NCBI GenBank assembly: GCA_031268885.1
Contig: JAIRWR010000082.1
Coordinates: 1-37,830, forward strand
Direction: 5' to 3'
DNA: 37,830 bases
DNA from: Synergistaceae bacterium
Lineage (GTDB): Bacteria > Synergistota > Synergistia > Synergistales > Synergistaceae
In this document: piece after piece, positions 1,770 through 18,056 of the stretch
Layout: every line of letters starts with the position of its first letter
Numbering within the stretch: position 1 is the first letter of the stretch
Position numbers and translations under genes: made by a program
Notes under the pieces: model-generated
The model's database searches: none
Seen by the model: the letters and a program-made list of their open reading frames with translations, nothing else
What the model was told of the DNA's origin: nothing

Positions 1770-3509
1770 TTATTCCTGTCTCACTAAAAGGGAAGATATT
1801 TCTTCCTGGCTCAGGCCGTATAATTTAAAAGTGGATTTGTTGCAAGCATCCAGATCATGAATATTCGCGGCGTGAATTAATTCATTTCTTAGATTCTCTG
1901 ATACGTCCTTCCAGAAGGGTATACGGATACGCCTGATATATTGAGCCTGAAAACGTAAATACCCGCCGCGCATCTTCGTGGAATATGTTTCTATAAAGAG
2001 CTTGCTGACGCTGGATTGCATCACAGCTTGTAGAGCTCGTAGGTTCCATATCTCTGAAATAACGTAATAAATATTGTGATGAGGGTAGAATTTGCCCGAA
2101 TCGTATACGACGTGAGCTTTCCCCTTAATATCCGGTATCAATAATTTTGGTTGATAGGTTAAATCCGACCGTATATGATCGATGGTTCTATACCAGCTTA
2201 GCGGTGTTTTTTGAGCACAATGACGTTTAGTTATTATTTCTTTATGATTCTCCAAATAGTGGGCTAATCTAGGATAATCCTCCAAAGCAACGAGTTTTCC
2301 AATATCAGTAAACGGATTGATTACCCCTTTGCCTCGCCAAACAATCTCTCCCGACTGAATATCGCGAGTTGTTACAAGAGGAAGTTTTCGATCTGGCTCT
2401 ACGTCAAGGGAATCAAAATCTCCAATGAAAACTTTGTCCGCGCCAGTAGCAACACCAATACCAATTTTGCAACCGATATCTTCAATATGAGGTAGTTGAT
2501 TCTCAATTCGACGAATTAGTTTAATTTGACTGGATGTATCTAATAGCCATGGCTCAGAACCATTTACTACCCCTAGTACCTCGTTGACTGAAGAATTAGG
2601 GGGTAATATCTCAGAAGTAATTTCTATTGAGACTTGAGCCAGTATATTCTTGTCTATTTTGGGTCGGTGGACAACGCGCGTTACATTGGCCTTTGTTTTA
2701 GCTATGACTGTGATTGCGGGGTAAGCGCTGACTTCAGAATGAAAGACTTCAGTACCGACCATATCTACGTAAGTTTTTAAATGGAACCCCTTTGAAATGA
2801 ATTCTCTAAGTGATCTACCGTATCGATTTTTCATCCATCGGTCTGAACATATAAAACCAAGTATCCCGCCTGAATTAAGCAAGGACAAAGAACGTTCCAT
2901 AAATGGAACGTACAGATCCGCACGATCATACATCGTTTTGAAAAGAGATCTATATTCAGATAATAATGGTTCTGATATCAACTCTTGCCTAACGTAAGGC
3001 GGATTACCAACAACATAATCAAAAAAAACAACCTGTGGTTCAAGGAGAAAATCCCCTTGAATCAACCACCTATTTGCCAGTTCGTATGCTTCTAAAGACA
3101 CGATACCCATTGATCTTAACTTGGTAATAACCGCCCTATGTGTTGTTTCAAAAGTTGGCCGATGTAATTCCACTGCCCGAATCGCGTCTCCCAATTCCTC
3201 AAGAGAAGACGAATGACTTGTCGTGTTAGCTCGCCAAGAATGAAGTAAACGATCTATGACCGGCAGAAGAAAATCGCCATTCCCGAAAGATGGTTCCAGA
3301 ATACGCTTTGTGTGGAGACAAGCGTTTGAAACATAGCCCACAAGATCAAGGATAAACTCAACAACTTCTACCCGAGTAAAAATCGCGCCCCGTTTTTCCA
3401 CATCGCTAATAGTTGCCATATCTTCAACAGCCTCTAAAAGCGCCGTAGACTTAGGCAATTTTGTAACATCCCAATTGTCGAATAGTGTTTGTTGCCTTAA
3501 GTTCGGCAT
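1770..3509 (-). CDS. Type II DNA adenine-N6 methyltransferase (orphaned, probably XhoI/PaeR7I-type)
   Basis: This 579-aa protein has the class I SAM-dependent layout. A GAIFTR segment sits at 41-46, the SAM-binding motif I appears as [10 protein letters not shown] at 71-80, and the catalytic motif IV is NPPY at 169-172. Together these mark an N6-adenine (or N4-cytosine) gamma-class enzyme of the Eco57I/TaqI type. The C-terminal half (about 330-560) would be the target-recognition domain. A ribosome site (AAAGGAG) precedes the ATG at 3509. The endonuclease remnant begins two bases after its stop, so the pair was once a restriction-modification operon. If that endonuclease was XhoI-like, the site protected would be CTCGAG; this is inference. 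The gene is AT-richer than the core genes, in keeping with horizontal transfer. No promoter was clear upstream. Confidence 0.85.
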
Positions 3510-3867
3510 CCTTGTTCTCCTTTTCTATGCGTGTATCGAAAAGCCGCAACGATACTTAAAAATCACCCTTCAACAGGTTGGATTGTTATGTTGTTTTTTT
3601 GATTATCGTGTTGCTCAACCTCAATTACAGTAACCGTCCGTGCCTGTGTTGTTCAACCTTTTCCGGCGCTAAAGAAACCTTTCAGGGGTTCCAATATAGC
3701 CAACAAAAATCCGAAGGATTGAATGGATTCTACCCCTTAGGCTTGAACGATTATATTATCTTATTCATGGTTCAAGAGATTCGACATTTTCACTCAATGG
3801 GTGAAAGCCTTATTTTGCTTGAATCGGGATTATCACCAGGCTCGTCGGCACTGTCAAGTACCCAAAT

Positions 3868-3885
3868 CTGTGGTTTGAGGTGTAC
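3868..3885 (+). repeat. 18-bp repeat, right copy
   Basis: CTGTGGTTTGAGGTGTAC is the partner of the copy at 1629-1646 (16 of 18 identical, same orientation). It lies about 360 bp upstream of the methyltransferase start. Confidence 0.55.
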
Positions 3886-3943
3886 TGTAACATATTGACA
3901 GCAGTTTAAAGTTGGAATTATAATCTCTCTTACCATAACGATT

Positions 3944-4342: not shown

Positions 4343-6046
4343 ATGTCTAAGAAGAACAATGTTTTGTGGTTGCTGTTGTCGCTGGTTCTCTTCGCGGCGC
4401 TGTCCTCGAGTCTGGCCTTGGCCGACGTAATGACCGCCGGAGGTGTCAAGTCCGCAGCAGTCAAGACCGACGGCATACTTCCAGCCAGGTCCGCAGATGA
4501 CGACGACTCCTACAGGCAGATTCTCTACGACTACGAGGAAGGAAGCGGAAGCCGGTTGTGGGGGCCCGGGATAGACTGGAGAGGGCAGTATTACTACCTT
4601 AAAAAGAACGCGGCCCGGACTGTCTCCTACATTTTCCTGAACTACGGGCCAGACGACAAAACGGATCCGTTCATAACCATCAACGGCAACGTTAGTACGT
4701 TCGATATCGCATCCGACGCCAACAGTTCTTATGTCTATTATAAGCTAGAGGACGAAAACACGATTTACAGGTTGCCGCTGGAAGAAGGCGCCAGCAACCC
4801 GGTACCCAAAACCTTTACTATGGACGGCACAGACTTCCTATTCACATCGTTCACGATGGCGCAAGACCCCAATCAATTTTTGCTGTATTCGAAGGATGAC
4901 GACGATCTGAAAGTCAAGATCGGCCTCTTCTCCTTCGACGACGGAGGGACTGAACCCACCAGCATCTGGACATGCAGATTACCGGCAGAATGGAAAGATA
5001 ACTTCAAGCCTATATCTATTGAAGACCTGGGCTATGGCGTTATCTTCGAAGCATCTACCGGTAATATCTGGTTTTACGCCCAAAGATCATTAGCTACAAG
5101 TGACGGCGGCCGGTTTAACGCGAGGTGGTGGTTTTTCTCCGGTCTCATATCAGGCTCCGGTGAGCTCTCTCCATACATCCCATCGCCCGAAATCCATGGA
5201 GTGGATAATACTACCGGACATCTAAAGCTTCTTAGTATCGAGCGTTATGGACGGATTGTTACTGAATATGACGGAGACAAACCCGACAATATTTTAAGCA
5301 TTAGAGAACTCGATCAGGCATTCGGGCTTCTTAAGAGCGGGGACATAACGACGTGGACCGACGACGATGGAGATGAAAAGTCCATCGGTAATTTTTACAG
5401 CGGCTACAGCAACTCTAACTCGAACACAAACGATTGGTATCAAGTGGGGAGAGACATCGACGGCCAGGGAAATTTCTATTTAGTCTATCAGATAATTTCC
5501 AGCAACGGTTCCGGCAAGTGGAGTCGTTTTGCCCTCTTCTCCCCAGGTCAGTCATCGGCTGTAGGCATAGGAACGCCAGATCCATCGGCCAACAACGTCA
5601 CCTTCAAACCAGACGACGAGGTTGTATTGAAATCCAGCCTGCCGTCCATGCCAACCGGCACAACAATCACCGGAAGCAGATGGGAAGTTTACCAGACAGA
5701 AGTTTATCGGACAAGGACAGCTACGCCCTACTACACCGGAACGAATTACGACGCCAGTAACACCCACACGGTAGATAAAACTCTGCCTGCTGGGAGCTAC
5801 ACATGGCGCGTCGCGTACGATTGGGTCAAGGAAGGGATCGAGACGGTCAATGGCTCGACCAAGTGGTCTCCAGACGCTTCTATATCTGTAGCCGTCAGAA
5901 CCCAGGACACTAACCAGGACGACACTAACACTGACTCAACAAATAACAGTTCTGGAGGCAGCGGCGGCTGCGATACCGGATTCGGACTTCTGACGCTCGC
6001 CGCGGCGGCTTATGCTGTCTCGCGCAAATATCCGCAAGATAGATGA
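4343..6046 (+). CDS. Secreted protein with Synergist-CTERM sorting signal
   Basis: The 567-aa product starts with a signal peptide (charged SKKNN, then a hydrophobic run to about residue 27). The long middle (about 40-420) is rich in aromatic and acidic residues, with short beta-type segments that could form a beta-propeller. About residues 430-520 resemble a fibronectin-III-like beta domain ending in an extraction pattern (GSYTWRVAY). The tail is GGSGGCDTGFGLL with Cys543, a short hydrophobic stretch and a basic end. This fits the Synergist-CTERM sorting-domain family known from Synergistetes, where the tail is thought to be processed for surface attachment. The ATG at 4343 was preferred over the in-frame ATG at 4322 because GAGGAGG (4324-4330) lies between them, 12 bases before the second. 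The precise role is unknown. It is the first of seven plus-strand genes for exported proteins. Confidence 0.8.
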   Translation: MSKKNNVLWLLLSLVLFAALSSSLALADVMTAGGVKSAAVKTDGILPARSADDDDSYRQILYDYEEGSGSRLWGPGIDWRGQYYYLKKNAARTVSYIFLNYGPDDKTDPFITINGNVSTFDIASDANSSYVYYKLEDENTIYRLPLEEGASNPVPKTFTMDGTDFLFTSFTMAQDPNQFLLYSKDDDDLKVKIGLFSFDDGGTEPTSIWTCRLPAEWKDNFKPISIEDLGYGVIFEASTGNIWFYAQRSLATSDGGRFNARWWFFSGLISGSGELSPYIPSPEIHGVDNTTGHLKLLSIERYGRIVTEYDGDKPDNILSIRELDQAFGLLKSGDITTWTDDDGDEKSIGNFYSGYSNSNSNTNDWYQVGRDIDGQGNFYLVYQIISSNGSGKWSRFALFSPGQSSAVGIGTPDPSANNVTFKPDDEVVLKSSLPSMPTGTTITGSRWEVYQTEVYRTRTATPYYTGTNYDASNTHTVDKTLPAGSYTWRVAYDWVKEGIETVNGSTKWSPDASISVAVRTQDTNQDDTNTDSTNNSSGGSGGCDTGFGLLTLAAAAYAVSRKYPQDR

Positions 6047-6163
6047 ACGAGATATATATCTTCACGCGGCGGGTTGACGAAGAAGCTGAGGATAACACTC
6101 TCGCTGACTCGTTCGACTTCAGGACTTCAGGTCCATGATCTTCAAATTGTGGTAAAATGACGT

Positions 6164-6204
6164 GGGGTGAGGGGGAACATGGAGGCGGATATCACCTCAT
6201 CCCC
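6164..6204 (+). terminator. Putative terminator after the Synergist-CTERM gene
   Basis: GGGGTGAGG (6164-6172) can pair with CCTCATCCCC (6195-6204) with one bulged base. It lies about 120 bp past the stop at 6046, in the 278-bp gap before the next gene. The following tract (CCGCCTTTCAT) is a poor T-run, so this is only a candidate. If real, it separates the first gene from the rest of the block. Confidence 0.35.
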
Positions 6205-6324
6205 CCGCCTTTCATACAAAACCCGAAGATGGGAACCAATCGTGAACACAGGCGATGCTGTATGATGACACGAGGTTTTTTGTGATACTTCGCTATCGGA
6301 ATACACAGATTGGAGGATGAGATC

Positions 6325-7455
6325 TTGAAAAGATTTTGTGTCTTTCTCACCGCGTCTTTAGCGTTGTTTATTCTGTTTCACACTGCGGAGCCGTCGTCCG
6401 CTTTCACGCTCAAAGAGCTCGATACCACCGTGCAGAAGTACGCTCAAAAGCTCGCCAGGGCTGATGGCGTTCAGAAGGCGTTCTGCGAAATGGACGGCAG
6501 TGTCATCACTGGCATAGGTTCGAACTCGTACAGCACCGTGAGGTATGTCCAAGGCGATCTCGACGTCGCGCTGGAACTGCGGCCGACCGGAAACCTCATC
6601 ATGCTCTTTACGATAAACCCGGAGTTCAAGCTGCCGGGCAATATCGGCGTCGGTGATCCGATAAGCAGGGTCATGGTCGCGGCGCTCATCCCGGGCGATT
6701 ACTCCCGCGAGGTAAAGGACAGCTCTACCACTCACCATAAGTGGGTACGCGACGGCAAAGTGACCATCATCGCTGAGGTTGGCGGAAAGATCGCTGAAAT
6801 AGCCTACGGCGACACAAACCGGCAGAAAGGCGTCACTGTAAACTGGGACTACGCCCGCTATCTGTCCGACAACAGACCGAGCGCCGGAGCCGAGGACGAG
6901 GGCGATTCCGGCGAGGGCGAAGGCGACGATTGGGATGAAGGCGACGGGGGCGTCGATGATTCCGAAGATAAGTTCTTTTCCAGTCTTTTTACAAATACTA
7001 TTAATTTTCTAGAGGGCGCTAACGAGAAGTTAACGTTATGCACATCAAAGGGCAGAGTGATTACTAATGAGGAGTATCGGGAGAGGACCGACGCGGCAAT
7101 CGAGGCAAGGAGATCTGGCGTAGAGTATCATCAGGGGAGAAAGAGCGCGTCGGTGTGGCGCAAGACCGATTCGGGAAGTAAATTTGTCCTGTTCAGGACG
7201 GAGGATCCAGAACTGGCGTTTTATGGCGGAGTAAAAATCGGCGGCGGCATCTCGGCCGCTCTGGCGCCAGGCATCGTTATCGGCGAATACAAGGTAGAAC
7301 CCGTCTCAAACGGCAAGCTCCATACCTGGACGTCCGGCTCTGTCGTTATCAAAATATCCGAGGTCAAGGGCAAGATCGTAAACATATCAAGCGTCGATAC
7401 AGAGGAGATGGATAAAATCACCGTGAGGAACGAGCTGCTGTCATACCTCAGGTGA
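6325..7455 (+). CDS. Secreted two-repeat protein with acidic linker, function unknown
   Basis: The 376-aa protein has an N-terminal signal peptide (KRF, hydrophobic core, PSSAF at about 21-25). Two related globular halves follow. The first ends IGVGDPISRVM...HKWVRDGKVTIIAEVGGKIAEIAYGD, the second VKIGGGISAAL...LHTWTSGSVVIKISEVKGKIVNISSVD. Between them is a Gly/Asp/Glu linker (about residues 195-217) with almost no hydrophobic residues. The TTG at 6325 is chosen because GGAGG (6312-6316) is 8 bases before it and it places basic residues directly ahead of the hydrophobic core; an in-frame TTG at 6310 overlaps the ribosome site. I do not recognise a named family. The GDPI pattern resembles the start of the C-terminal modules of the two TPR proteins in this block, hinting at a shared fold. 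Confidence 0.75.
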   Translation: MKRFCVFLTASLALFILFHTAEPSSAFTLKELDTTVQKYAQKLARADGVQKAFCEMDGSVITGIGSNSYSTVRYVQGDLDVALELRPTGNLIMLFTINPEFKLPGNIGVGDPISRVMVAALIPGDYSREVKDSSTTHHKWVRDGKVTIIAEVGGKIAEIAYGDTNRQKGVTVNWDYARYLSDNRPSAGAEDEGDSGEGEGDDWDEGDGGVDDSEDKFFSSLFTNTINFLEGANEKLTLCTSKGRVITNEEYRERTDAAIEARRSGVEYHQGRKSASVWRKTDSGSKFVLFRTEDPELAFYGGVKIGGGISAALAPGIVIGEYKVEPVSNGKLHTWTSGSVVIKISEVKGKIVNISSVDTEEMDKITVRNELLSYLR

Positions 7456-7513
7456 CGGTACGCTGGCATCAGGATTCATCAGGCATCACCGGCTCAAACA
7501 AATTATTGGGAAA

Positions 7514-9451
7514 GTGAGTGATGTTTCATTGAAGCGCAAAGTGACGCTCCGTTTTATCATTATTGTCGTAGTTTTACTATCCCTCGCGGCGTTAGCGGTT
7601 GCGATAGCCACGGACGTCATAGTCACCAGCCGTGTATCCAACACCGCGAGCTTTCACGAGCTTCAGGGCATTCAGGGCGCGTACACGACTCAGAGCGTAG
7701 TGCTGCAAAAGAAGGCCAAGAAGGCTGGAGGACATGAAAAGGAGCAGAAGGAGCTCGACCAGATCAGGGGAGAGAAGCTCAAGATCTACCAGACGGTGAC
7801 AGCAGCCGAACGCGCGAGAAATCTCTATATCGAAGCGATGGAGAAGGGCAACGACGCGACGTCTCAGCGAGCGGATCTGGAGGCCCGCATACCCGAAGCC
7901 AGAGCCCTGTTGCCGCGCATACAGGAACTCGCCGCCAGGGATATTGAAATTTCAAAGATCCTGGGGGCCGACGAGGCATTCCTATCAGTCATCAAGACAT
8001 CCTATAAGAGCATGGAGACAGCAATAAACACGCTGCAGATCGAAGAACTCACGGAGGAACAGATCGCGGCCCGCGAGCGCGACATCCAGATTGAGGGCAG
8101 AGGCGCAATCCACACGGCCAGCCTGATATCCGGCCAACTGGACGCGGACGATCTGGAAGAGGAGGAGATAGATATCCTGGAACAGGAGGTCATCGAGCCC
8201 GGCGAGGATAGCGTAAGGGGCCTTGGCGATCTCCTGAGCCAAATGCCGGCCATATTGTTCGGTTCTATCCAGGGCATGAGCGAGGGGATCGGCTTTTTCA
8301 ACGAGGCTCTCGGACGCTACAACTACGATGGCGGGCTTGCGGACATGGCGCGCGACCTCTCCTTCAATCAGGGAGCGTTCAGCCGCAGGAATATGAGCCA
8401 ATTCCAAAAGAGAATCGACTCGATCGGCGCTGGAGTTCATCAGTTCTTAAACGAATACAGCCCGTTCATAGACGGCTTGGGGCGGCGCATCGGACGGGAG
8501 GCGGACGCCGACCCGCTGGGATACGGCAGCAACATAATAATACGTTTTCAGGATTTAGAGGGCCGTTACTACATATTGCGCGAGGATGAAGGACAGCATC
8601 TGCGCGTCGTCGCGGACAAGCTGGCAACCAAATGGAATTCAGAAGAAAACGAGATAAGGACGATGATAATCCTCGATTACGACAACGAGGGTGTTGAAGA
8701 GGCGGTAAAGGCTGTCAACGCGGTGGCCGGTGGCGGATACGAGCGATATGTGAGAGAGTCGCGCATAGTCTATCTCTTCAAGGTGTATTTCCTGCACTCC
8801 AGAAAGGGATACCTGAGGGCCGCCAGTTTTCAAAACGCGGACGGACAGGAGCTATACAGCTATGAACCGATCGACCCATACAACAGCCCTGTCGACATAA
8901 TACGCCGCAACGTGCTCGACTATCGCATACTCGAAACGATAACTGTCGTAAACCCGCCTAAGAATAAGGGAGTGGTGCGGTCTTACTTTGGCGACAAGAG
9001 CGCGAAGCCCAGATCCAAAAAGAATGCCGGTAAAAACGCGGAACAGCTTGCGGACAGCTCGAAGACAGATGCCAGCGACGCGCGGGCTAAGCCGGACAAG
9101 CCGCCAAGCAAACCCAAGGCGTCCAAAAAAGGGTCCATAGAATCGCCGGCGGATGGAGTGGAAGTGCTGGAGTCACTTGGCGCCGACAACGCGACGCTTG
9201 GAGCTATGATCCTCGAACACGATAATTCAGTGAAGAATTTCAACGACGGCAAGTATGCCCTGGCGCTGCGCACATTCGGCAGGGCGGCGAAAATGCACGA
9301 CGGCAACTATCTCGACTCCTACTGGGCGGCATTAGCCGCGCACTACGCGAAGAACAACGGAGCCGTAAAAGAATGGCTCGACAGATGTCTCTCCATCAAG
9401 AGCGATTACCTGCCGGCTCTGGAGATGAAAAAAGCTTTGAAATTGAAGTAA
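7514..9451 (+). CDS. Membrane-anchored coiled-coil protein with C-terminal TPR
   Basis: The 645-aa product begins with a short basic segment, then one transmembrane helix (about residues 12-33). A long charged helical region (about 40-240) looks like a coiled coil. A mixed domain (about 330-480) has no family I can name. A Lys/Pro/Ser-rich linker (about 495-550) leads to a short TPR-like end (about 560-645, SVKNFNDGKYALALRTFGRA). With one N-terminal helix followed by a long polar body, it should sit in the inner membrane with its bulk outside. The GTG at 7514 is weakly supported by a ribosome site; the in-frame TTG at 7529 is an alternative. It lies 58 bp after the previous gene and is probably in the same transcript. 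Confidence 0.7.
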   Translation: MSDVSLKRKVTLRFIIIVVVLLSLAALAVAIATDVIVTSRVSNTASFHELQGIQGAYTTQSVVLQKKAKKAGGHEKEQKELDQIRGEKLKIYQTVTAAERARNLYIEAMEKGNDATSQRADLEARIPEARALLPRIQELAARDIEISKILGADEAFLSVIKTSYKSMETAINTLQIEELTEEQIAARERDIQIEGRGAIHTASLISGQLDADDLEEEEIDILEQEVIEPGEDSVRGLGDLLSQMPAILFGSIQGMSEGIGFFNEALGRYNYDGGLADMARDLSFNQGAFSRRNMSQFQKRIDSIGAGVHQFLNEYSPFIDGLGRRIGREADADPLGYGSNIIIRFQDLEGRYYILREDEGQHLRVVADKLATKWNSEENEIRTMIILDYDNEGVEEAVKAVNAVAGGGYERYVRESRIVYLFKVYFLHSRKGYLRAASFQNADGQELYSYEPIDPYNSPVDIIRRNVLDYRILETITVVNPPKNKGVVRSYFGDKSAKPRSKKNAGKNAEQLADSSKTDASDARAKPDKPPSKPKASKKGSIESPADGVEVLESLGADNATLGAMILEHDNSVKNFNDGKYALALRTFGRAAKMHDGNYLDSYWAALAAHYAKNNGAVKEWLDRCLSIKSDYLPALEMKKALKLK

Positions 9452-9601
9452 TGCCAGGTCGATTTCAAACGAGTATTAATGGAGAGGGGGGAGAGTCAAA
9501 ATAAAGAAAATCGAAACGCGGCATAGCTTCGCGCGCGGCGACGGCGCCGATTGGCATAAGCTGTAACAGTGATCGACTAAGACGAGGGGGGTTATTATTT
9601 A

Positions 9602-10615
9602 ATGAGAAAAACATTGACGGGAATTATTGTGTTATCCATCCTGATCCTTGGAGTAACCGCTGTGTCATGGGCGGATGTGAAGTCCGGTTCAACCGCTCAG
9701 ACTCGCGACATAGTGCTTATGGAAGAAGATGCCGCTCCTGGCAGTTCCACTGGAGAGATACAGGTCCAGGAACTGCACAAGAACGACTTTGTGACCACGA
9801 TAGTCTCTGACAGACCCGACGGAATCTACAACATCGGCGACAATATCATCCTCAGGTTCACCAGCGAAAGAGACGCGTATGTGACCGTCCTGGACTTCAC
9901 CCCGAGCGGGCAGATCGTCGTGCTCTTCCCAAACAAGTGGGTTGCCGACAACCACGTCAAGGCCGGTGAAACAGTGATCATTCCCGCTGAGGGGCAAAAC
10001 TTCTCGCTCAAAGCGGGCGGTCCTGTCGGAGTCGATGTTGTAAAGGCGATAGCGACCAACAACAGAGAACAGGTATACGACGACGCGAACAAGGACTTGG
10101 CCGGTCCTTTCAGCGTTTTAAAGGATCCTAAGGTCGCGACGCGAGACATTCTGCTGCTGGCCGAGGAGCAACCCGCTTCACCGGCGGACGGTACGCCAGC
10201 TCAGCCGCTTGAATGGAGCGTGTCCTCACTGGCTCTCATGACGAAAGACGAAGAGGACAACTCCCCGACAGGTTTCACGGCCGGTTCGAGCGGAGATTGG
10301 CAGGTGAAGATGTGGACGAACAGAAATAATTTTCTGGTGGGCGAGCGCGTGTTCGTGAAGCTGCTCAGCAATAAGGACGGCAGACTGACCTCCCTCCTGA
10401 ACGCCGGAGCGAGTTCGAGCGAGAATAACCTCCTTCCAGAAGATTCCAGCGTAGTTTTCAAAGCCGGAGAAGTTCTGATTCTCCCTCGCGCTGATGATAA
10501 GTGGAAGCTCGTCTCCGCCGAAAAGGCCGGTGTGGACGGAATCAAGGCTGAACTCGCGCTCAATGACGGAACCAAACTCGAAATTGAACTCGGACTGACA
10601 GTAGAACAGGATTGA
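9602..10615 (+). CDS. Exported DUF4384 domain protein
   Basis: The 337-aa protein has a clear signal peptide (RKT, hydrophobic run, VSWA at about 21-24). Residues about 70-165 carry the DUF4384 pattern: GDNIILRFTSERDAYVTVLD, then GQIVVLFPN, then VKAGETVIIPAEG, then a Gly-Val-Asp-Val strand. A second, weaker copy begins near 225 (FLVGERVFVKLLSNKDGRL). DUF4384 is a beta-rich domain often found fused to or beside caspase-fold (metacaspase or CHAT) proteins, so its place upstream of the CHAT gene is meaningful. GAGGGGGG lies 11-12 bases before the ATG at 9602. The next gene starts 4 bases after its stop, which implies co-transcription. Confidence 0.8.
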   Translation: MRKTLTGIIVLSILILGVTAVSWADVKSGSTAQTRDIVLMEEDAAPGSSTGEIQVQELHKNDFVTTIVSDRPDGIYNIGDNIILRFTSERDAYVTVLDFTPSGQIVVLFPNKWVADNHVKAGETVIIPAEGQNFSLKAGGPVGVDVVKAIATNNREQVYDDANKDLAGPFSVLKDPKVATRDILLLAEEQPASPADGTPAQPLEWSVSSLALMTKDEEDNSPTGFTAGSSGDWQVKMWTNRNNFLVGERVFVKLLSNKDGRLTSLLNAGASSSENNLLPEDSSVVFKAGEVLILPRADDKWKLVSAEKAGVDGIKAELALNDGTKLEIELGLTVEQD

Positions 10616-10619
10616 TCAA

Positions 10620-11894
10620 GTGTGGCCGCGGATGAACAGACGGACGATTAAAAGAACGGCTTTAGCCTGCTGCGCCGCCGTATTTGTGGCGTTAGCCGCG
10701 GCTGGGGGGAACGCTTTTGCCGCTGAGAGCCGTTTCGAACGGGCCAGAAACCTGTACGACATACACGAGTACAATGTGGCTCTCGTATTATTCGAAAAAG
10801 TTATAGAAAGCGAGCCGGAAAACGGGGAGGCATTGGATTTCGCCAGTTGGTGCAACCGTTACCTCGGCAACTGGGAGACAGCTAAAAAGGGATTTCAGCA
10901 GGCCGAACAGCTTCTCCCAGGCAAGCTCTCAAAGTGGGTCAAGGTCGGCCTTGGAGAGACATATCTGGGCGCGGGCGCTTACGGCGAATCCATTCTGGCT
11001 TTTGAACAGGCCATAGGACTGGATCCCGACGATGAAGAACTGGTCGTCCGCGCCAGAAAGGGCATAGTCCTCGCGAACGCGAGCCTGATGGATTCCAAGG
11101 CCATGAATACCGCGCTGTCCGATCTGAGCGGAGACGTGGCGGCAGAGGTAAAAGAGGACGCCGACGCGCTGCTTGAGAGACAGTCCGCATCGAACAAACC
11201 CGGCGAAGCAACGGCATCAGAGACCGTGTCATCCGGCAATCTTTCCAACGCTGACGAAAGGCGCGCCGCGGTTTTCGAAGCGGCCGCGGCCTCCAGCGAG
11301 AGAGAGACTGCCGAAACCCCGGACCAACAGGGACCGGCCGAACCCAAAGAGAGAGAGACAGGCTCCTCTCCGGCCAATGATGATCGAAACGCGCCGGGCA
11401 ACGGCGTCGAGCTTGGCTCCGGATCCATCTGGAGCGTGCTCTCTCTCGGAGAACCCATTGAGGGCATACTGTCGGGCCTGAGCGGCCTTGGAATAAGTAT
11501 CCAGAAAGTCGAGGAACCGACGCGTTCGGGAGCATGGATCCACATACTGGGTTTCCCGCCCGGAATGGCGCCTCCGGCAGTCACGAATGGCGACGCGGAT
11601 ACAACGATGTGCGTCATAGAGGAGTTCCAGGGGAGACTGCGCGCCGTGACCATCACGAGTTTCTGGGAGAACCGGAAGAGCTGCATCCGGATGAAAGACG
11701 CCATTTTTAAAGAGACCGCGGCAAAATTGAACGAAAGACTGCGCGTAATAGGCGCGGTCACGGACAGCGGTCTTTTTACGGAAGCTCAGTGGGTGCTCGG
11801 CGAGTCCCCGATCGGGGTTTCGCTGAGCGGGACGGCCGGCCTTGACGGCTCCATCATCGTGGAGACTATCTATATCGATCTCTCCTTGATATGA
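10620..11894 (+). CDS. Exported TPR protein (paralogue A, upstream of the CHAT gene)
   Basis: The 424-aa protein has a signal peptide (basic RRTIKR, then an Ala/Cys/Val-rich core ending NAFA). TPR repeats fill about residues 36-150 (ARNLYDIHEYNVALVLFEKV and following). A low-complexity Ala/Ser/Glu/Pro linker covers about 170-265. A C-terminal module of about 150 residues starts at LGEPIEGILSGL and ends YIDL. The same three-part plan, with similar TPR sequence and C-terminal ending, recurs in the protein at 16473-17801 on the other side of the CHAT gene, so the two are paralogues. The GTG at 10620 follows AGGA by 8 bases and sits 4 bases after the DUF4384 stop; the ATG at 10632 is an alternative start. 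A role as periplasmic scaffold or partner of the CHAT protein is inferred from context only. Confidence 0.75.
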   Translation: MWPRMNRRTIKRTALACCAAVFVALAAAGGNAFAAESRFERARNLYDIHEYNVALVLFEKVIESEPENGEALDFASWCNRYLGNWETAKKGFQQAEQLLPGKLSKWVKVGLGETYLGAGAYGESILAFEQAIGLDPDDEELVVRARKGIVLANASLMDSKAMNTALSDLSGDVAAEVKEDADALLERQSASNKPGEATASETVSSGNLSNADERRAAVFEAAAASSERETAETPDQQGPAEPKERETGSSPANDDRNAPGNGVELGSGSIWSVLSLGEPIEGILSGLSGLGISIQKVEEPTRSGAWIHILGFPPGMAPPAVTNGDADTTMCVIEEFQGRLRAVTITSFWENRKSCIRMKDAIFKETAAKLNERLRVIGAVTDSGLFTEAQWVLGESPIGVSLSGTAGLDGSIIVETIYIDLSLI

Positions 11895-11923
11895 ACGCGC
11901 TCCAAATAATAGCGGCCGTGAAA

Positions 11924-11986
11924 CAGCGGGGACGAAAGGGATAATCAGCGGACTGGTTTTGTGTTATCTGATATTCGTCCCCGCTG
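11924..11986 (+). promoter_or_regulatory. Strong inverted repeat between the TPR gene and the CHAT gene
   Basis: CAGCGGGGACGAA (11924-11936) and TTCGTCCCCGCTG (11974-11986) are perfect 13-bp complements around a 37-base loop that itself holds a smaller ATCAG/CTGAT pairing. The ribosome site of the CHAT gene follows at once, and TCCAT/ATGGA around it can form a small second stem. There is no T-tract for a standard terminator. It could be a processing or stability element setting the ratio of the two products, or a protein-binding site. Confidence 0.5.
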
Positions 11987-12010
11987 GTCCATAAATGGAG
12001 GACGATGAGA

Positions 12011-15000
12011 ATGGCGAAGAAGATCGTATTCATTATTTTGTTATGTGCTCTTTTATTGTTCCAAGACGCCGCGATGGCCGCCGAATCGGGGGACTCGCTG
12101 TTCAATCGCGCGATATCGGCCTACAATGAAAAAAAGCTCATAACCGCGGCGGAAATGTTCGGCAAGGCGGGAGAAGCCTATTCGAAGGAAAAAAAAGACC
12201 TGAAGGCGGCGCAGTGCTTTTACAACCAGGGACTGTGCCTGTCTGGCTCCGCACAGTCCAAACCGGTGACGGAGGCGTTCGAGCGGGCGGCTTCGCTGTA
12301 CAGGAAGGCAAAGAACGCGCCGGGCGAGAGCCAGTCCCTTCTTCAAGCGGCTCAGATATACATAAACGGAATGCAGTGGGATAGGGCACGCGAGCATTAT
12401 GAGAGATGCCTTAAGACAGCGGGAAAGGACATCACGGTTCTGGGTATGGCCTCGGAGGGACTTGGGCGGATCCATCGCGAACAGAACAACCTGGCCGAAG
12501 CGGAAAAATATTTAAAAACAGCCGATACAGCCTACAAGAACAACCCTGGCGGCAGGCTCAGGGTCAGGCTCCAATTGGCTTATATCACGGGTTTGCGGGG
12601 CAGACAGGACGAAGCGCTCTCAATGTACGACTCAGCCATAGAAGAAGCTGCCGCAATGCAAAAGAGACAGGAGACAAGAGACGAGGGCGAACTGATGGCC
12701 TTCTTCGCGCGGAGCGACAAGGGGGAATTTTTGCTTCAGGCCGGAGCTTTCGGGGAGGCCAAGACAGCGCTGGAAGAAGCCCTGGCATTGGGAGAGAGAT
12801 TAGAAGCCTCAATCCCTTCGAATTCGGAGGCGATGCTGGCGCTCAAAACCGATCACGCGCAGTCATTGATGTACCTCGGGAATTTCTCCGGGGCGGCTTC
12901 GGAGTTGAATACCCTTTTGAGCTTTGCGGTGGGTTCCGACAACACCGCGCTTTCAATGAAGGTCAACGCGGCGCTGGGCACTCTCGCGCGCATGAGGGGC
13001 GACTACGAAGGCGCTGCGGCGCTGTTCGAAAATTTCAGGAGTATCGCCGAAAAATCCGGACAGACTCAGAGCTTGGCTCAGGCTCTCATCCAACAGGCGG
13101 CACTCTTCTCCCAGACAGGCGTCTGGAGCGAGGCCGCCGCTTATTATCACGAAGCGTTCATAACGGCGCTCAAGGCTCAAGACATGGACAGTACGCTTCG
13201 CGCCATGCAGGGGATATACGAGAGCGACATAAAAAATGAGCTGGGGCTTGTGGGCAAGGTGGACTACAAGACATCTCAGGGACTACCCTGGAGAGCGGCC
13301 TTCACGGTGCGCCATCTTTATGAGAAAGCGCGGCCAGGATTCGAGGATTTGGGATTTATACAAGCTTGGAGAACAATTGATTCCCAGCGCTCCGATTCCC
13401 CCATTCCAAGCCTTGACGGATTCCGGATGATACGGGAGATAGCAATGAGGAACGCTCCTGAAATCCGTGAATACTATACTGAAACGAAGATTGGCTGGGC
13501 TATCGGGGATGCGATTCTTCGCAGTACATCCTCGCGGCTTCGTTCTGCCCGAAATGCCGAGGAAGCGCTTCGTGAGCTTGCGTCCCGCCAGGATGAGGCT
13601 GTTGACAAAAAATATGTACAGATGGCGTTTCAAACAACTCTGAACCTGCTTCGCTCCCTGGCGGGGGAGGGGATGTTGTCCGCTCTCCCCGAAGAACTCT
13701 ACGTCCAGATAGGCGGGATATTTGTCGAGGGTTCCGAACCCGACGGTTCCGCGGCGTCCGGGCAGGGCGGCATCGGAGAGGATATTCAGACGCTCTCGCG
13801 AATGATAGCTCTGACATCCCCGAAGGCTTCGGAGACGGAGGAGATGCAGAAAGCCCTTCTCGCCGGCAATCCCATTCCGGAGGCGATAAGAACGCGCCTT
13901 CGCAAGACGCTCTTCTCCCGCGCGTCCAGACCGCCCAAGTCGGACGGCGAATTGCTGGATGTGCTCTATCGCATATTGGAGAACACAAACCCGTCTTTGA
14001 AAAAGGATATCGGGCTCCTTGCCGAGGGAGAAGGTTTGATAAACTACACCGCGAATAATTTGAAGTTAGAGCGCGAATCCCTCTCGAAAGAGGCCGCCGC
14101 CCTGCTGCCGCAGACATCCCCGTATCTGTTGCTGTCTATAGACGCTGGCGATGAGATGGTACGCTTTCTCGACGCTTGGGCGAACATGCGCGGCCGCGCT
14201 GTAATCATGAAGGAACTTGGCATATCGCTAACGACTGACGCCGATTGGACAAAATTTCTGCCGAAACTCGGTTCTGCATTCGGACAGGCAGACGAAGTAT
14301 TCAAAAAAACATTCGCCTTAAAGCTGGATGACGCGGCAGCCGCTGCGGAAGGGGCCGCCAGGCTGCGTGATCTCGCTGAAAAACTCGCTTTCATGAAACT
14401 CGTGGACGAGGGGCGTAACATCGCTTCCATCCTGGCATCTGGCGATAACGTCTCGTATGACGATCGGATGTCCATCCTGGAGCTTCAGTCACGAATCCGC
14501 TATGCCATGTCCTCTCCGGAGCGCGCGGAGGAATCCGCGGAAAACGTGCTGTCGATGCTGGGCGCTTCCAGCGCCGATATCTCCGTGGAATCTCAGCCGG
14601 AGATACAGTGGCGGGTCTATGGCATGATGGCTCGTATCGCGGAGGACAGGGGCGATTTTTCCGAGGCTTCCCGACTTTACAACGTTGCTTTATCCAGGAT
14701 CGAAGCCATACATCCCATAGAGGGAACCACCAGCCAGAGCACTGCCGACCGTACGGCGCTCTATGGGGGAGCGATCAGGACGAAGTATGAGATCTGGAGC
14801 GCTGATCCATCCGGTGAAAATGTGGAGAAACTCTGGTTGGCCCTTGAAAACATGAAGAGCCGTCAATGGCGCGAGATGCTGGCCACGACCGGAGGAGAAT
14901 TCTTGAACGCGCTTCCGCCGGAGGACCGCGAGAAGGTCAGGGAACTCGAAATACAGCGGGTAGCCCTCGAAGGGGCGTACAGGAGCGCCAATTTCAGAGG

Positions 15001-16447
15001 ACAACGCGAAGAGGCTCTGCGCATCAACGACGACATAAGAAAGTTGCGCGAACAGCGCCTGGAACTGACAAAAAATAGAACGATCGACGTGGATTCCACG
15101 CCCGGAATCGCCCCGGTGAAGGAGCGTCTGCCCAAGGACTGGGGACTGGCCAATTATTATCTCTCTCCTGAACTGTCGTTTGCCATCGTGCTCACTCGCG
15201 GCGGAGAAGCGGCGGTAACGCCTCTCGACATCGACTACGACTCCCTATTTGGTTATTCTTACTGGATGCGCTATAAGGATAAAAGTGGTATAGGCGAATA
15301 TGACGAGTCCAAATTCCTGTCGCCAGGGCGTCCGCGCGTCACGACATGCGGCCTGTCGCCGGAAGATGTGGCTTCCAAGATCTTTGACCCCGTCGCGTCC
15401 GCGTGCGGGAAATTGAGAAAACTCCTGATAATTCCTCACGACATACTTTATGTGCTCCCGATAGAGGCCCTGCAGCGGAAGGACGGCAAGGGCGCGACAT
15501 TCCTCGTCCACGACTGGACATTGGCGGAGCTGCCAAGCGCGTTTCTCCTGACGCGGGAACGCGCCGAGGCCAAAAACGACCGCGCGTTGATGCTCGTCGC
15601 CAACCCCGCCTATGCAACGCTGTTGAGCAGCATTAAACATCCGGCTTCGCTCAAAATAGCGCTGGAGAACGATCCAAAACTGCGGGAGATAATCAGCGCC
15701 CAAATTGGCGATGAAAACCTCAATGGGGTGATATCAAACAAACTCCCGAGCGAGGAGAGGGACAAGGTCACATCCGCGCTCAAAAAAGCATGGGAGAAGG
15801 AGCTCAGCGAGACTGAGAAAGTGTCGCTGCTCGCTCTGAAGATAAAAAAGGAATTCGGCCCACATCTCACACTCTTGGACAATTCACAATCAGAAGCCAT
15901 AAATGTGGGAAGAATCTGGAAAAAAAACGGGGGCGGCGACCCGGCCATGCTCCTGTCAAGTATGGCCTCAGAGGGTGAGTTCTGGAACAACAATCCGGGA
16001 CAGTATCGTTACGTCCACATCGCTTGTCATGGATATGACAGAGGAACGATTCCGGATCTTCAACCGGGTCTTGCGCTGTCGCCCATCAGAGACCCGTCGA
16101 ACGATTCCTTCCTGCAGATGGGGGAACTGTCAACCGTGAGATGGAATTCCGAGTTAGTCACCCTTTCAGCCTGTGAAACAGGACTTGGCGACCTCTACAT
16201 AGGGGACGGAATGTTTGGTCTGTCCACCGTGTTGCTGGCAGGAGGAGTAAAAGGGGCCATTCTGACGAGGTGGAGAGCCGTCGATGAGAGCGCGCCGATA
16301 TTAATGAATGAGTTTTATTCGAGGCTCTTTGCCGGCAAGCCACCGGCGGATGCGCTCCATGAAGCGCAGATTGCCATGGTCGAGGGAGGCGGGAATCACG
16401 CGCCAAGACACTGGGCCGTGTTCAAATACGTCGGTATACCGTGGTGA
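12011..16447 (+). CDS. Exported TPR-CHAT protein, putative cysteine peptidase
   Basis: The 1478-aa protein begins with a signal peptide (AKKIVFIILLCALLLF, cut near AMAA, residue about 23). Repeated TPR helices occupy about 25-420 and recur near 860-960 (GDFSEASRLYNVALSR). A long helical middle links them. The CHAT (caspase-HetF-associated-with-TPR) domain covers about 1090-1478. Its N-terminal half shows KLLIIPHDILYVLPIEAL (near 1136) and LPSAFLLTRE. The catalytic half has VHIACHGYDRG with His1340 and LSACETGLG with Cys1388, 48 residues apart as in caspase-like dyads. About 110 residues are inserted between the two halves. CHAT domains are clan CD cysteine peptidases; here the signal peptide places the enzyme outside the cytoplasm. 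The ATG at 12011 is preferred over that at 12005, which is only 3 bases from GGAGG. The substrate is unknown. Paralogous TPR genes lie on each side. Confidence 0.88.
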   Translation: MAKKIVFIILLCALLLFQDAAMAAESGDSLFNRAISAYNEKKLITAAEMFGKAGEAYSKEKKDLKAAQCFYNQGLCLSGSAQSKPVTEAFERAASLYRKAKNAPGESQSLLQAAQIYINGMQWDRAREHYERCLKTAGKDITVLGMASEGLGRIHREQNNLAEAEKYLKTADTAYKNNPGGRLRVRLQLAYITGLRGRQDEALSMYDSAIEEAAAMQKRQETRDEGELMAFFARSDKGEFLLQAGAFGEAKTALEEALALGERLEASIPSNSEAMLALKTDHAQSLMYLGNFSGAASELNTLLSFAVGSDNTALSMKVNAALGTLARMRGDYEGAAALFENFRSIAEKSGQTQSLAQALIQQAALFSQTGVWSEAAAYYHEAFITALKAQDMDSTLRAMQGIYESDIKNELGLVGKVDYKTSQGLPWRAAFTVRHLYEKARPGFEDLGFIQAWRTIDSQRSDSPIPSLDGFRMIREIAMRNAPEIREYYTETKIGWAIGDAILRSTSSRLRSARNAEEALRELASRQDEAVDKKYVQMAFQTTLNLLRSLAGEGMLSALPEELYVQIGGIFVEGSEPDGSAASGQGGIGEDIQTLSRMIALTSPKASETEEMQKALLAGNPIPEAIRTRLRKTLFSRASRPPKSDGELLDVLYRILENTNPSLKKDIGLLAEGEGLINYTANNLKLERESLSKEAAALLPQTSPYLLLSIDAGDEMVRFLDAWANMRGRAVIMKELGISLTTDADWTKFLPKLGSAFGQADEVFKKTFALKLDDAAAAAEGAARLRDLAEKLAFMKLVDEGRNIASILASGDNVSYDDRMSILELQSRIRYAMSSPERAEESAENVLSMLGASSADISVESQPEIQWRVYGMMARIAEDRGDFSEASRLYNVALSRIEAIHPIEGTTSQSTADRTALYGGAIRTKYEIWSADPSGENVEKLWLALENMKSRQWREMLATTGGEFLNALPPEDREKVRELEIQRVALEGAYRSANFRGQREEALRINDDIRKLREQRLELTKNRTIDVDSTPGIAPVKERLPKDWGLANYYLSPELSFAIVLTRGGEAAVTPLDIDYDSLFGYSYWMRYKDKSGIGEYDESKFLSPGRPRVTTCGLSPEDVASKIFDPVASACGKLRKLLIIPHDILYVLPIEALQRKDGKGATFLVHDWTLAELPSAFLLTRERAEAKNDRALMLVANPAYATLLSSIKHPASLKIALENDPKLREIISAQIGDENLNGVISNKLPSEERDKVTSALKKAWEKELSETEKVSLLALKIKKEFGPHLTLLDNSQSEAINVGRIWKKNGGGDPAMLLSSMASEGEFWNNNPGQYRYVHIACHGYDRGTIPDLQPGLALSPIRDPSNDSFLQMGELSTVRWNSELVTLSACETGLGDLYIGDGMFGLSTVLLAGGVKGAILTRWRAVDESAPILMNEFYSRLFAGKPPADALHEAQIAMVEGGGNHAPRHWAVFKYVGIPW

Positions 16448-16472
16448 TTTTACCGCGAAGAGGAGCGTTGTG

Positions 16473-17801
16473 ATGAAAAAAATAGTTACCATCTCGATTA
16501 TCGCTGTTTTTTTAATGTTGCACACGATACAAGCGATGGCCTCGTCCATCGAGGAGCTTCATGAACGCGCGAAGAACCTGTATGACGTCGGCGATTACAG
16601 AGCCGCGTTGAACCTGTACGAGAGAATCCTCGACGGCAACGCGGAAGATGGGCTGGCATGGGATCTCTCCGCCTGGTGTCTGAGATACCTTGACGACCGT
16701 GACAACGCGGAGAAAAACTATAAGAGAGCGCTTGAGCTGCTCACCAGTGATGATATAGTCTGGCCGATGATCGGACTGGGGGAGATTTACATGAACGGCC
16801 GGCGTTACGAGGATGCCCTGACGTGTCTGAGGGAGGCCTTGGGCATAGCATCCGGCAATGAGGAAGCCTCCGGGCGCGCGAAACGCGATATCGAAATAGT
16901 CCTGCAGAAAATAGAAGACGAGAGAGCCAACGCCGTATCGGAGAAGCCAGAGATGACAAACTCCAACAGACGCCAGGCGACCGCTCTTCTCTCTCATATC
17001 CAGGCGGCTGAAGCCGAAACCGAGAGGACGCCGGAGTCCCAGCCCACCGCTGAGAAGGCAAGTTCTGGAGAGAAGCCTGACTCGCCGAAGCCGACAAAAC
17101 CCGGCAATCCAAAGGAACCAGCCAAAAAGGAACCAGCCAAAGCCAAAAAGGAACCATCCGAAACTGAGATGAAAAAAGACGGCCCCAAGGCGAAACCCGA
17201 TAAGGCCAAGGTCATCGCTGAACCAAAGGATAATCAGCCCAAACGCGATAGAGTAAATAAGGAACAAAAGGACAAGACGCCGGCACAGACATCGGTCAAG
17301 CACGAAACCGTATACGGCATCACGTTGGATTCACCGATCGACACAGCGCTGAAAGATCTGAAAAAAAATGGTTCCGGCACAACCGGAACACCATTTACCA
17401 AGGACGGAAAGATGTACCACCAGGCGAGAGGCCTGCGCGTGAAACTGCCGCCTCTGATTGAGCGCGGATCGGTGAATAGACACTATTACGCGGTCTCTTA
17501 CGCCGAAAGAGTCCTGTCGGTAAACGTGGAGCTGAACTATGACAAGAGCAGGTCGTACGCGCAACTGAAGGAATCGGCCAAGGCAGAAATATCCGCGCTT
17601 GTCGGCGGAAGGGAGGTAATCGGCGTATGGGCTACGGATCATATCTTCAGTCACGAGATAAACATTGCGCTCTCTAATACATACGCCATATGGATCATAG
17701 TTACGGACAAGGGTAATGGAACCTGCCGCATGGAGATCCAGCACATAGATCTCTTCGGTCTTTCAAATTATTGGTCAAGCAACAGTAGTGTAGCATATTG
17801 A
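16473..17801 (+). CDS. Exported TPR protein (paralogue B, downstream of the CHAT gene)
   Basis: The 442-aa protein has a signal peptide (KKIVTISIIAVFLML, cut near AMAS). TPR repeats follow at about 25-145 (HERAKNLYDVGDYRAALNLY), then a Lys/Pro/Glu-rich linker (about 170-275), then a C-terminal module (about 280-432) starting YGITLDSPIDTALKDL and ending QHIDL. The plan and many positions match the protein at 10620-11894. The ATG at 16473 has AGGAG 8-9 bases upstream and lies 25 bases after the CHAT stop, so the two are almost certainly co-transcribed; a longer in-frame extension upstream overlaps the CHAT gene and has no ribosome site. The basic linker is unusual beside the acidic linker of the protein at 6325. 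The function is not known; partner or substrate of the CHAT protein are reasonable guesses. Confidence 0.75.
   Translation: MKKIVTISIIAVFLMLHTIQAMASSIEELHERAKNLYDVGDYRAALNLYERILDGNAEDGLAWDLSAWCLRYLDDRDNAEKNYKRALELLTSDDIVWPMIGLGEIYMNGRRYEDALTCLREALGIASGNEEASGRAKRDIEIVLQKIEDERANAVSEKPEMTNSNRRQATALLSHIQAAEAETERTPESQPTAEKASSGEKPDSPKPTKPGNPKEPAKKEPAKAKKEPSETEMKKDGPKAKPDKAKVIAEPKDNQPKRDRVNKEQKDKTPAQTSVKHETVYGITLDSPIDTALKDLKKNGSGTTGTPFTKDGKMYHQARGLRVKLPPLIERGSVNRHYYAVSYAERVLSVNVELNYDKSRSYAQLKESAKAEISALVGGREVIGVWATDHIFSHEINIALSNTYAIWIIVTDKGNGTCRMEIQHIDLFGLSNYWSSNSSVAY
17111..17156 (+). repeat. Short tandem repeat coding a Lys-Glu-Pro-Ala-Lys linker
   Basis: AAGGAACCAGCCAA-type units recur about three times, giving alternating KEPAK steps in the linker of TPR paralogue B. 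Such repeats expand and contract by slippage, so linker length may vary between strains. Confidence 0.6.
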
Positions 17802-17838: not shown

Positions 17839-17982
17839 GTCCTTCTCTCGCCGCCAAATCGCTTATTCCGATCCGATATCAACAGGTTACGCAAAACACG
17901 CGATTTGAAGATAAGTCCTTTACATTTTGATCATCCAATAATAAAATTACGCTATCCACTGAAGTGTCTTTGTGCATATAAT

Positions 17983-18056
17983 AGTTTAGACATTGAGATT
18001 GATCCGGCTAAAATGTCTTCATATTAAATAACAGTTTAGACATTGGGATTGATCCA
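17983..18056 (+). promoter_or_regulatory. Two 24-bp direct repeats upstream of the livJ-like gene, period 50 bp
   Basis: AGTTTAGACATTGAGATTGA (from 17983) and AGTTTAGACATTGGGATTGA (from 18033) are near identical and continue as ATCC plus a purine to about 18006 and 18056. The first copy contains TAGACA, 16 bases, then TAAAAT (18009-18014), a possible promoter. The spacing of 50 bp is close to five helical turns, which suits a cooperative regulator or duplicated promoters. The gene starts 36 bases after the second copy. Confidence 0.55.

Follow-up and report, generated by a model that had tools for sequence, protein, structure and literature searches.

A predicted extracytoplasmic TPR-CHAT gene core of Synergistota and the repeated motif of its DUF4384 protein

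Described CHAT and caspase-fold systems and the Synergistota locus

Csx29, a TPR-CHAT protease, cuts the co-encoded protein Csx30 in a flexible loop (PMC10028731). Known cleavage sites in Craspase vary among orthologues, do not lie after Arg and can depend on position instead of sequence (PMC11106740), and orthocaspases cut after positively charged residues (PMC6426788). Anabaena HetF combines CHAT, TPR and a membrane segment, with the CHAT domain at the N-terminus (residues 1-555), a role in the divisome and in heterocysts, and no DUF4384 partner in the text consulted (PMC8406250). DUF4384 is linked to caspase-fold domains in orthocaspases of Alphaproteobacteria and cyanobacteria, where it is fused to a p20 domain (PMC6426788, PMC8283722).

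The locus analyzed here lies on a contig of 37,830 nucleotides, referred to as the window (contig C104 of a 2.44 Mb assembly in 136 contigs), and comprises seven consecutive plus-strand ORFs, g1 to g7, between positions 4343 and 17801. Gene starts were picked by signal peptide and upstream context, and alternative upstream starts exist for some of them. The genes, domains and motifs are:

4343..6046 (+): g1, predicted exported protein with a Synerg-CTERM-like tail; adjoins the core, outside the conserved core
6325..7455 (+): g2, predicted exported protein outside the conserved core; related to two genes beside the G171 cassette
7514..9451 (+): g3, predicted N-terminal membrane anchor, coiled-coil-like extracytoplasmic region and C-terminal TPR-like segment
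9602..10615 (+): g4, signal peptide and two DUF4384 domains (Pfam PF14326, 9.5e-31; orthologues; AF2 model)
9698..9727 (+): g4 motif copy 1, residues 33-42, QTRDIVLMEE, in predicted disorder directly after the signal peptide
9827..10063 (+): DUF4384 domain 1 of g4 (87.6 bits)
10136..10168 (+): g4 motif copy 2, residues 179-189, ATRDILLLAEE, in the inter-DUF4384 linker (predicted disorder)
10331..10549 (+): DUF4384 domain 2 of g4, divergent (24.5 bits)
10632..11894 (+): g5, signal peptide, TPRs, linker and C-terminal alpha/beta domain; paralogue of g7
12011..16447 (+): g6, signal peptide, TPR array and C-terminal CHAT peptidase domain; 1478 aa
15377..16435 (+): CHAT domain of g6, residues 1123-1475 (Pfam PF12770, 1.7e-45)
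16028..16030 (+): His1340 codon of the predicted g6 catalytic dyad, motif CHGYDR (invariant in 15/15)
16172..16174 (+): Cys1388 codon of the predicted g6 catalytic dyad, motif LSACETGLGDLY (invariant in 15/15)
16473..17801 (+): g7, signal peptide, TPRs, charged Pro/Lys/Glu linker and C-terminal alpha/beta domain

The sequence-only reading had described a seven-gene plus-strand run with N-terminal export signals, and both the positions and the hydrophobic N-terminal segments are as it claimed. Its TPR-CHAT protein with a His1340/Cys1388 dyad is g6, which matches the CHAT profile at 156 bits against a cut-off of 24 and has the dyad where it had been placed; its DUF4384 gene is g4, in which Pfam recognizes both domains; and its two paralogous TPR genes are g5 and g7, which align at ~22% identity and have TPR and C-terminal domains in common. 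Pfam also finds TPRs in g5, g6 and g7, and in the search of the seven genes no family scored above its cut-off in g1, g2 or g3.

The likeness to Csx29 and Csx30 lies in a TPR array followed by a C-terminal CHAT domain and in a co-encoded partner. Csx29 is indeed the best PDB sequence match of g6 (8d9g), but the match is weak (E 0.009), and unlike Csx29, which works with Cas7-11 and RNA, the cassette proteins carry export signals. No Cas7-11 (gRAMP), csx30/csx31 or sigma gene was recognized in the window, and by Pfam its larger neighboring genes are not CRISPR-related. HetF, in turn, has its CHAT domain first, then the transmembrane segment and TPRs, whereas the CHAT domain of g6 is C-terminal. 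The plasmid-borne TPR-CHAT proteins of Nostoc and Azospirillum also bear signal peptides but have no g3/DUF4384/TPR cassette alongside, and their identity of 24-35% covers the CHAT region only. In the orthocaspases DUF4384 and p20 form one chain, whereas here DUF4384 is a separate protein beside the CHAT protein. A Rhizobium plasmid locus (L120, 3878-8315) encodes an exported DUF4384-TPR-OmpA protein, an exported caspase-fold (C14) protein and a trypsin-like protease. There, as in the window, a signal-peptide-bearing DUF4384 protein adjoins a signal-peptide-bearing clan CD gene, but the window has CHAT in place of C14 (PF00656), and the Rhizobium locus differs further in its OmpA domain, its trypsin-like gene and the absence from its DUF4384 protein of the TRDI motif described below.

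Export was judged heuristically, from hydropathy, signal-peptidase-like sites assessed by eye, and conservation. All seven proteins have a single N-terminal hydrophobic segment (15-residue mean hydropathy 2.3-3.3), the hydropathy scan showed no later transmembrane-like segment in any of them, and a signal-peptide-like N-terminus is present in all 14 CHAT orthologues whose start is intact. The earlier contrast with CHAT peptidases as cytoplasmic enzymes does not hold, because CHAT proteins with signal peptides occur on plasmids of Nostoc and Azospirillum and also, outside the cassette, in other Synergistota such as G071 and G041 (three non-cassette proteins, read by eye). Export as such is therefore ruled out as the novelty of this locus.

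A five-gene core and its distribution

Of 188 Synergistota genomes searched, 19 match CHAT and 16 match DUF4384. The long CHAT protein (~1400-1500 aa) is encoded in 14 genomes, every one of which also has a DUF4384 gene. In 13 of them (G140 has two copies), DUF4384, g3, CHAT and one or more TPR genes are clustered in the same direction at 14 intact loci; the G088 cluster is divided between two contigs, and many of the compared genomes are fragmented MAGs. The order g3-DUF4384-TPR-CHAT-TPR is common to seven loci, the window included, a compact order DUF4384-g3-CHAT-TPR is found in genus g43, the G082 and G048 loci are rearranged, and one G140 copy is without g7. In every intact locus g3, in a long or a short form, adjoins CHAT/DUF4384. 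At one further locus (G083, L081 on C125; MAG 75% complete), g3, DUF4384, g5 and g7 are kept but CHAT is missing from its place between g5 and g7, which is occupied by a terminator-like hairpin (L081, 3574-3700).

By sequence comparison, then, the conserved unit is g3-g7. The proposal of an exported TPR-CHAT/DUF4384 gene unit of Synergistota is thus borne out for these five genes, which recur together with the dyad intact, but not for a seven-gene unit, which is ruled out as g1 and g2 do not accompany the core at other loci. That g1 and g2 are not conserved with the rest is what a chance cluster of unrelated exported genes would predict; for g3-g7 this explanation is contradicted by linkage in 14 intact loci of 13 genomes whose flanks are mostly unrelated, and we give it practically no weight.

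Genes 1 and 2 and the flanking DNA offer several observations of their own. The end of g1 (window 5957-6007) has a weak Synerg-CTERM-like tail (GGCDTGFGLLTLAAAAYAVSRK...) that scores below the NCBIfam cut-off for TIGR04564 (17.6 against 22.5 bits; E 0.003 for the tail alone), and g1 is possibly a surface-sorted protein. Nothing supports a role of CHAT in the C-terminal sorting of g1, since g1 has no counterpart in other cassettes. Genes like g2 were found beside the cassette in G171 only, and a relationship of g2 to the C-terminal domain of g5/g7 was not supported (hhalign probability 1.2%). Related envelope-type genes lie near the cassettes of G171, G147 and G142; the flanks of L067, L068 and L070 hold exported genes related between loci, among them weak FlgT_N-like and TPR proteins, which are a possible accessory module. 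Upstream of g1, a divergent promoter-like pair (window 3829-3924) separates it from a methylase gene, with a perfect TTGACA-18-TATAAT at 3895-3924 (+) and an 11/12 match at 3857-3829 (-). The methylase gene, of Eco57I/TaqI type (1770-3509, -), lies in a stretch of lower G+C (~0.40) near the cassette, which suggests acquired DNA. A MarR-type regulator (625-1407, -) has a long Gly/His-rich tail, perhaps metal-binding, that stems from a 165-bp tandem duplication (86% match). Downstream of the cassette, two 28-nt direct repeats (17978-18055; 93% identity, starts 50 nt apart) lie directly upstream of a branched-chain amino acid binding-protein gene and are possible regulator sites.

The core is thinly spread. 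A profile search of the contigs of the window genome placed CHAT at this one locus and both DUF4384 matches in g4. Three genomes of the same genus have neither CHAT nor DUF4384 matches, and within the family only G171 and G173 besides the window appeared among the matches listed. In the same-genus genomes other genes lie upstream of the liv operons (aldehyde dehydrogenase-like in G003 and prephenate dehydrogenase-like in G002, by sequence reading), leaving no clean empty site for comparison. The CHAT signature NDSF[LA]QMG / LQPGL[AV]LSP was found at 12 loci among ~85,000 species genomes, all of them in Synergistota, and by this signature the core is confined to that phylum; the scan was alignment-based, a single-sequence scan of contigs having given nothing. 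Plasmid CHAT matches, among those listed, are more distant and cover at most about a quarter of the query. In the CHAT tree the window groups with G171 (support 96/95) nested inside sequences of another family, and the two G140 copies sit in different clades, so that the history of the cassette may include transfer, duplication and loss.

This distribution bears on two alternative functions. The first is a general periplasmic quality-control or maturation protease with many exported substrates, the linked genes being chaperone-like helpers. Export signals on all partners and chaperone-like TPR folds would suit it, but a housekeeping role is ill-suited to so patchy a distribution, in which the three other genomes of the genus and most of the family lack the cassette, and we consider it quite unlikely. 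The second is an extracytoplasmic conflict or defense module, directed at a phage, predator or rival, in which CHAT activation would damage the envelope. CHAT domains have been described as effectors in conflict systems (PMC10907252), and the patchy spread, the two copies in G140, the nesting of the CHAT tree across families and the nearby Eco57I-type methylase gene are all consistent with this. However, PADLOC gives only weak, mostly TPR-level matches on the seven genes, no toxin-like domain was recognized in the cassette proteins and no defense genes were noticed beside other cassettes; a defense role thus seems to us a shade more improbable still.

The candidate protease, its DUF4384 neighbor and the TPR proteins

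The architecture of g6 marks it as a putative TPR-CHAT cysteine endopeptidase, its peptidase activity being presumed from the CHAT domain and the dyad. The dyad is invariant in all 15 orthologues, and the loss from most orthologues that would have spoken against the early proposal was not seen. In close pairs dN/dS is ~0.06-0.27 for CHAT, DUF4384 and g3, and by this measure all three are under purifying selection.

An alignment of 17 DUF4384 proteins revealed two occurrences of the motif ATRDI(V/L)L with acidic residues after it. Arg35, in the first copy, does not vary (17/17), and 16 of the 17 proteins retain Arg181, in the second. In the AF2 model of g4 (pLDDT 74; all AF2 models are of single proteins) pLDDT falls below 50 only in two runs, residues 19-55 and 173-199, each of which holds one motif, and mean conservation is 90% in the motif columns against 46% in other disordered columns and 65% in the whole protein. 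The DNA pattern TRDI[VLIM][LF]x[DE] gave ten matches in six whole cassette-bearing genomes, all in DUF4384 genes by position, while a reversed-pattern control gave none in the same genomes. It should be noted that this pattern is one reading of the motif: it caught only one of the two copies in the window and had no match in G171, where the motif is present; it misses variants, and the scan bounds rather than proves uniqueness. Within these limits, the twice-repeated motif is restricted to DUF4384 proteins in the six scanned genomes, and it may be what the protease recognizes. The remainder of the g4 model consists of tandem beta-rich domains whose top fold matches are RbmA and arrestins, with whole-chain TM-scores (by query length) of only ~0.18-0.25, for which reason no homologue is claimed.

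Of the partner proteins, g3 carries a conserved ELQGIQGA(D) segment in its coiled-coil-like region and, in the long form, a TPR-like segment at the C-terminal end, as read from sequence. The g7 model has pLDDT 81, with >90 in the C-terminal domain; the fold search of this domain of g5/g7 returned TPR matches throughout the list. By fold comparison the TPR regions of g5/g7 resemble peptide-binding TPRs such as those of CHIP and SycD, and their residues R32, N35, Y37, W68 and R71 are invariant. This resemblance and invariance, together with the acidic run that follows the motif and the presence of DUF4384 without CHAT at the G083 locus, favor another function for the motifs, namely that they are docking tags, an acidic, hydrophobic peptide that would bind a TPR groove in g5/g7 or in the CHAT protein and so assemble the complex, the protease acting on other envelope or external proteins. 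The number of motif copies (two), on the other hand, does not track how many TPR proteins there are (one or two), and we regard this possibility as somewhat unlikely.

A proposed extracytoplasmic complex and its significance

We now put forward a tentative mechanism, to which we assign a probability of about 0.4, in which g3-g7 form a membrane-tethered extracytoplasmic complex around the TPR-CHAT endopeptidase, with g4 as its partner and probably cleaved. What we infer, rather than read from sequence, is that a complex forms, that the motif serves for recognition, that cleavage takes place and whatever would follow downstream. Specifically, g3 would anchor the assembly in the inner membrane, facing the periplasm, and g5, g7 and the TPR array of g6 would provide scaffold and recognition surfaces. 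The tandem DUF4384 protein g4 would be the dedicated partner of the g6 protease, its two disordered segments presenting the ATRDI(V/L)L and acidic residues for binding in the active site of CHAT or in a TPR groove. By analogy, we consider it most likely that the activated CHAT enzyme would cleave g4 at or beside the ATRDI motifs, perhaps near Arg35 and Arg181. The choice of g4 as the partner, and of these positions as potential sites, derives from the cutting of Csx30 by Csx29 and from the preference of orthocaspases for positively charged residues. The Rhizobium pairing of DUF4384 with an exported caspase-fold gene is also in favor of the mechanism, while the G083 locus, where the other cassette genes persist without CHAT, speaks against it, though in an incomplete MAG. 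Since known Craspase sites are neither after Arg nor conserved, however, the conserved Arg motif might just as well serve for docking, and the data do not separate motif cleavage from motif docking.

A more elaborate form of the proposed complex would be a periplasmic counterpart of Csx29-Csx30, in which an envelope or external signal would lead to cutting of the DUF4384 partner at its two ATRDI motifs and to release of the beta-sandwich-like domains as signal or effector. We think this full sequence of events unlikely.

Exported CHAT proteins, and an exported DUF4384 protein beside an exported caspase-fold gene, also occur elsewhere, the latter at the Rhizobium locus. Hence what is new, and what makes the cassette distinct, is its own gene set and the duplicated motif of the DUF4384 protein in predicted disorder. 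In keeping with the early suggestion of an undescribed system, no description was found in the open-access papers searched. CHAT proteases with a known substrate are few, and a phylum-specific, predicted exported CHAT protein with a partner that carries a near-invariant repeated motif is a testable candidate pair outside CRISPR. The cassette also offers a first handle on the function of DUF4384.
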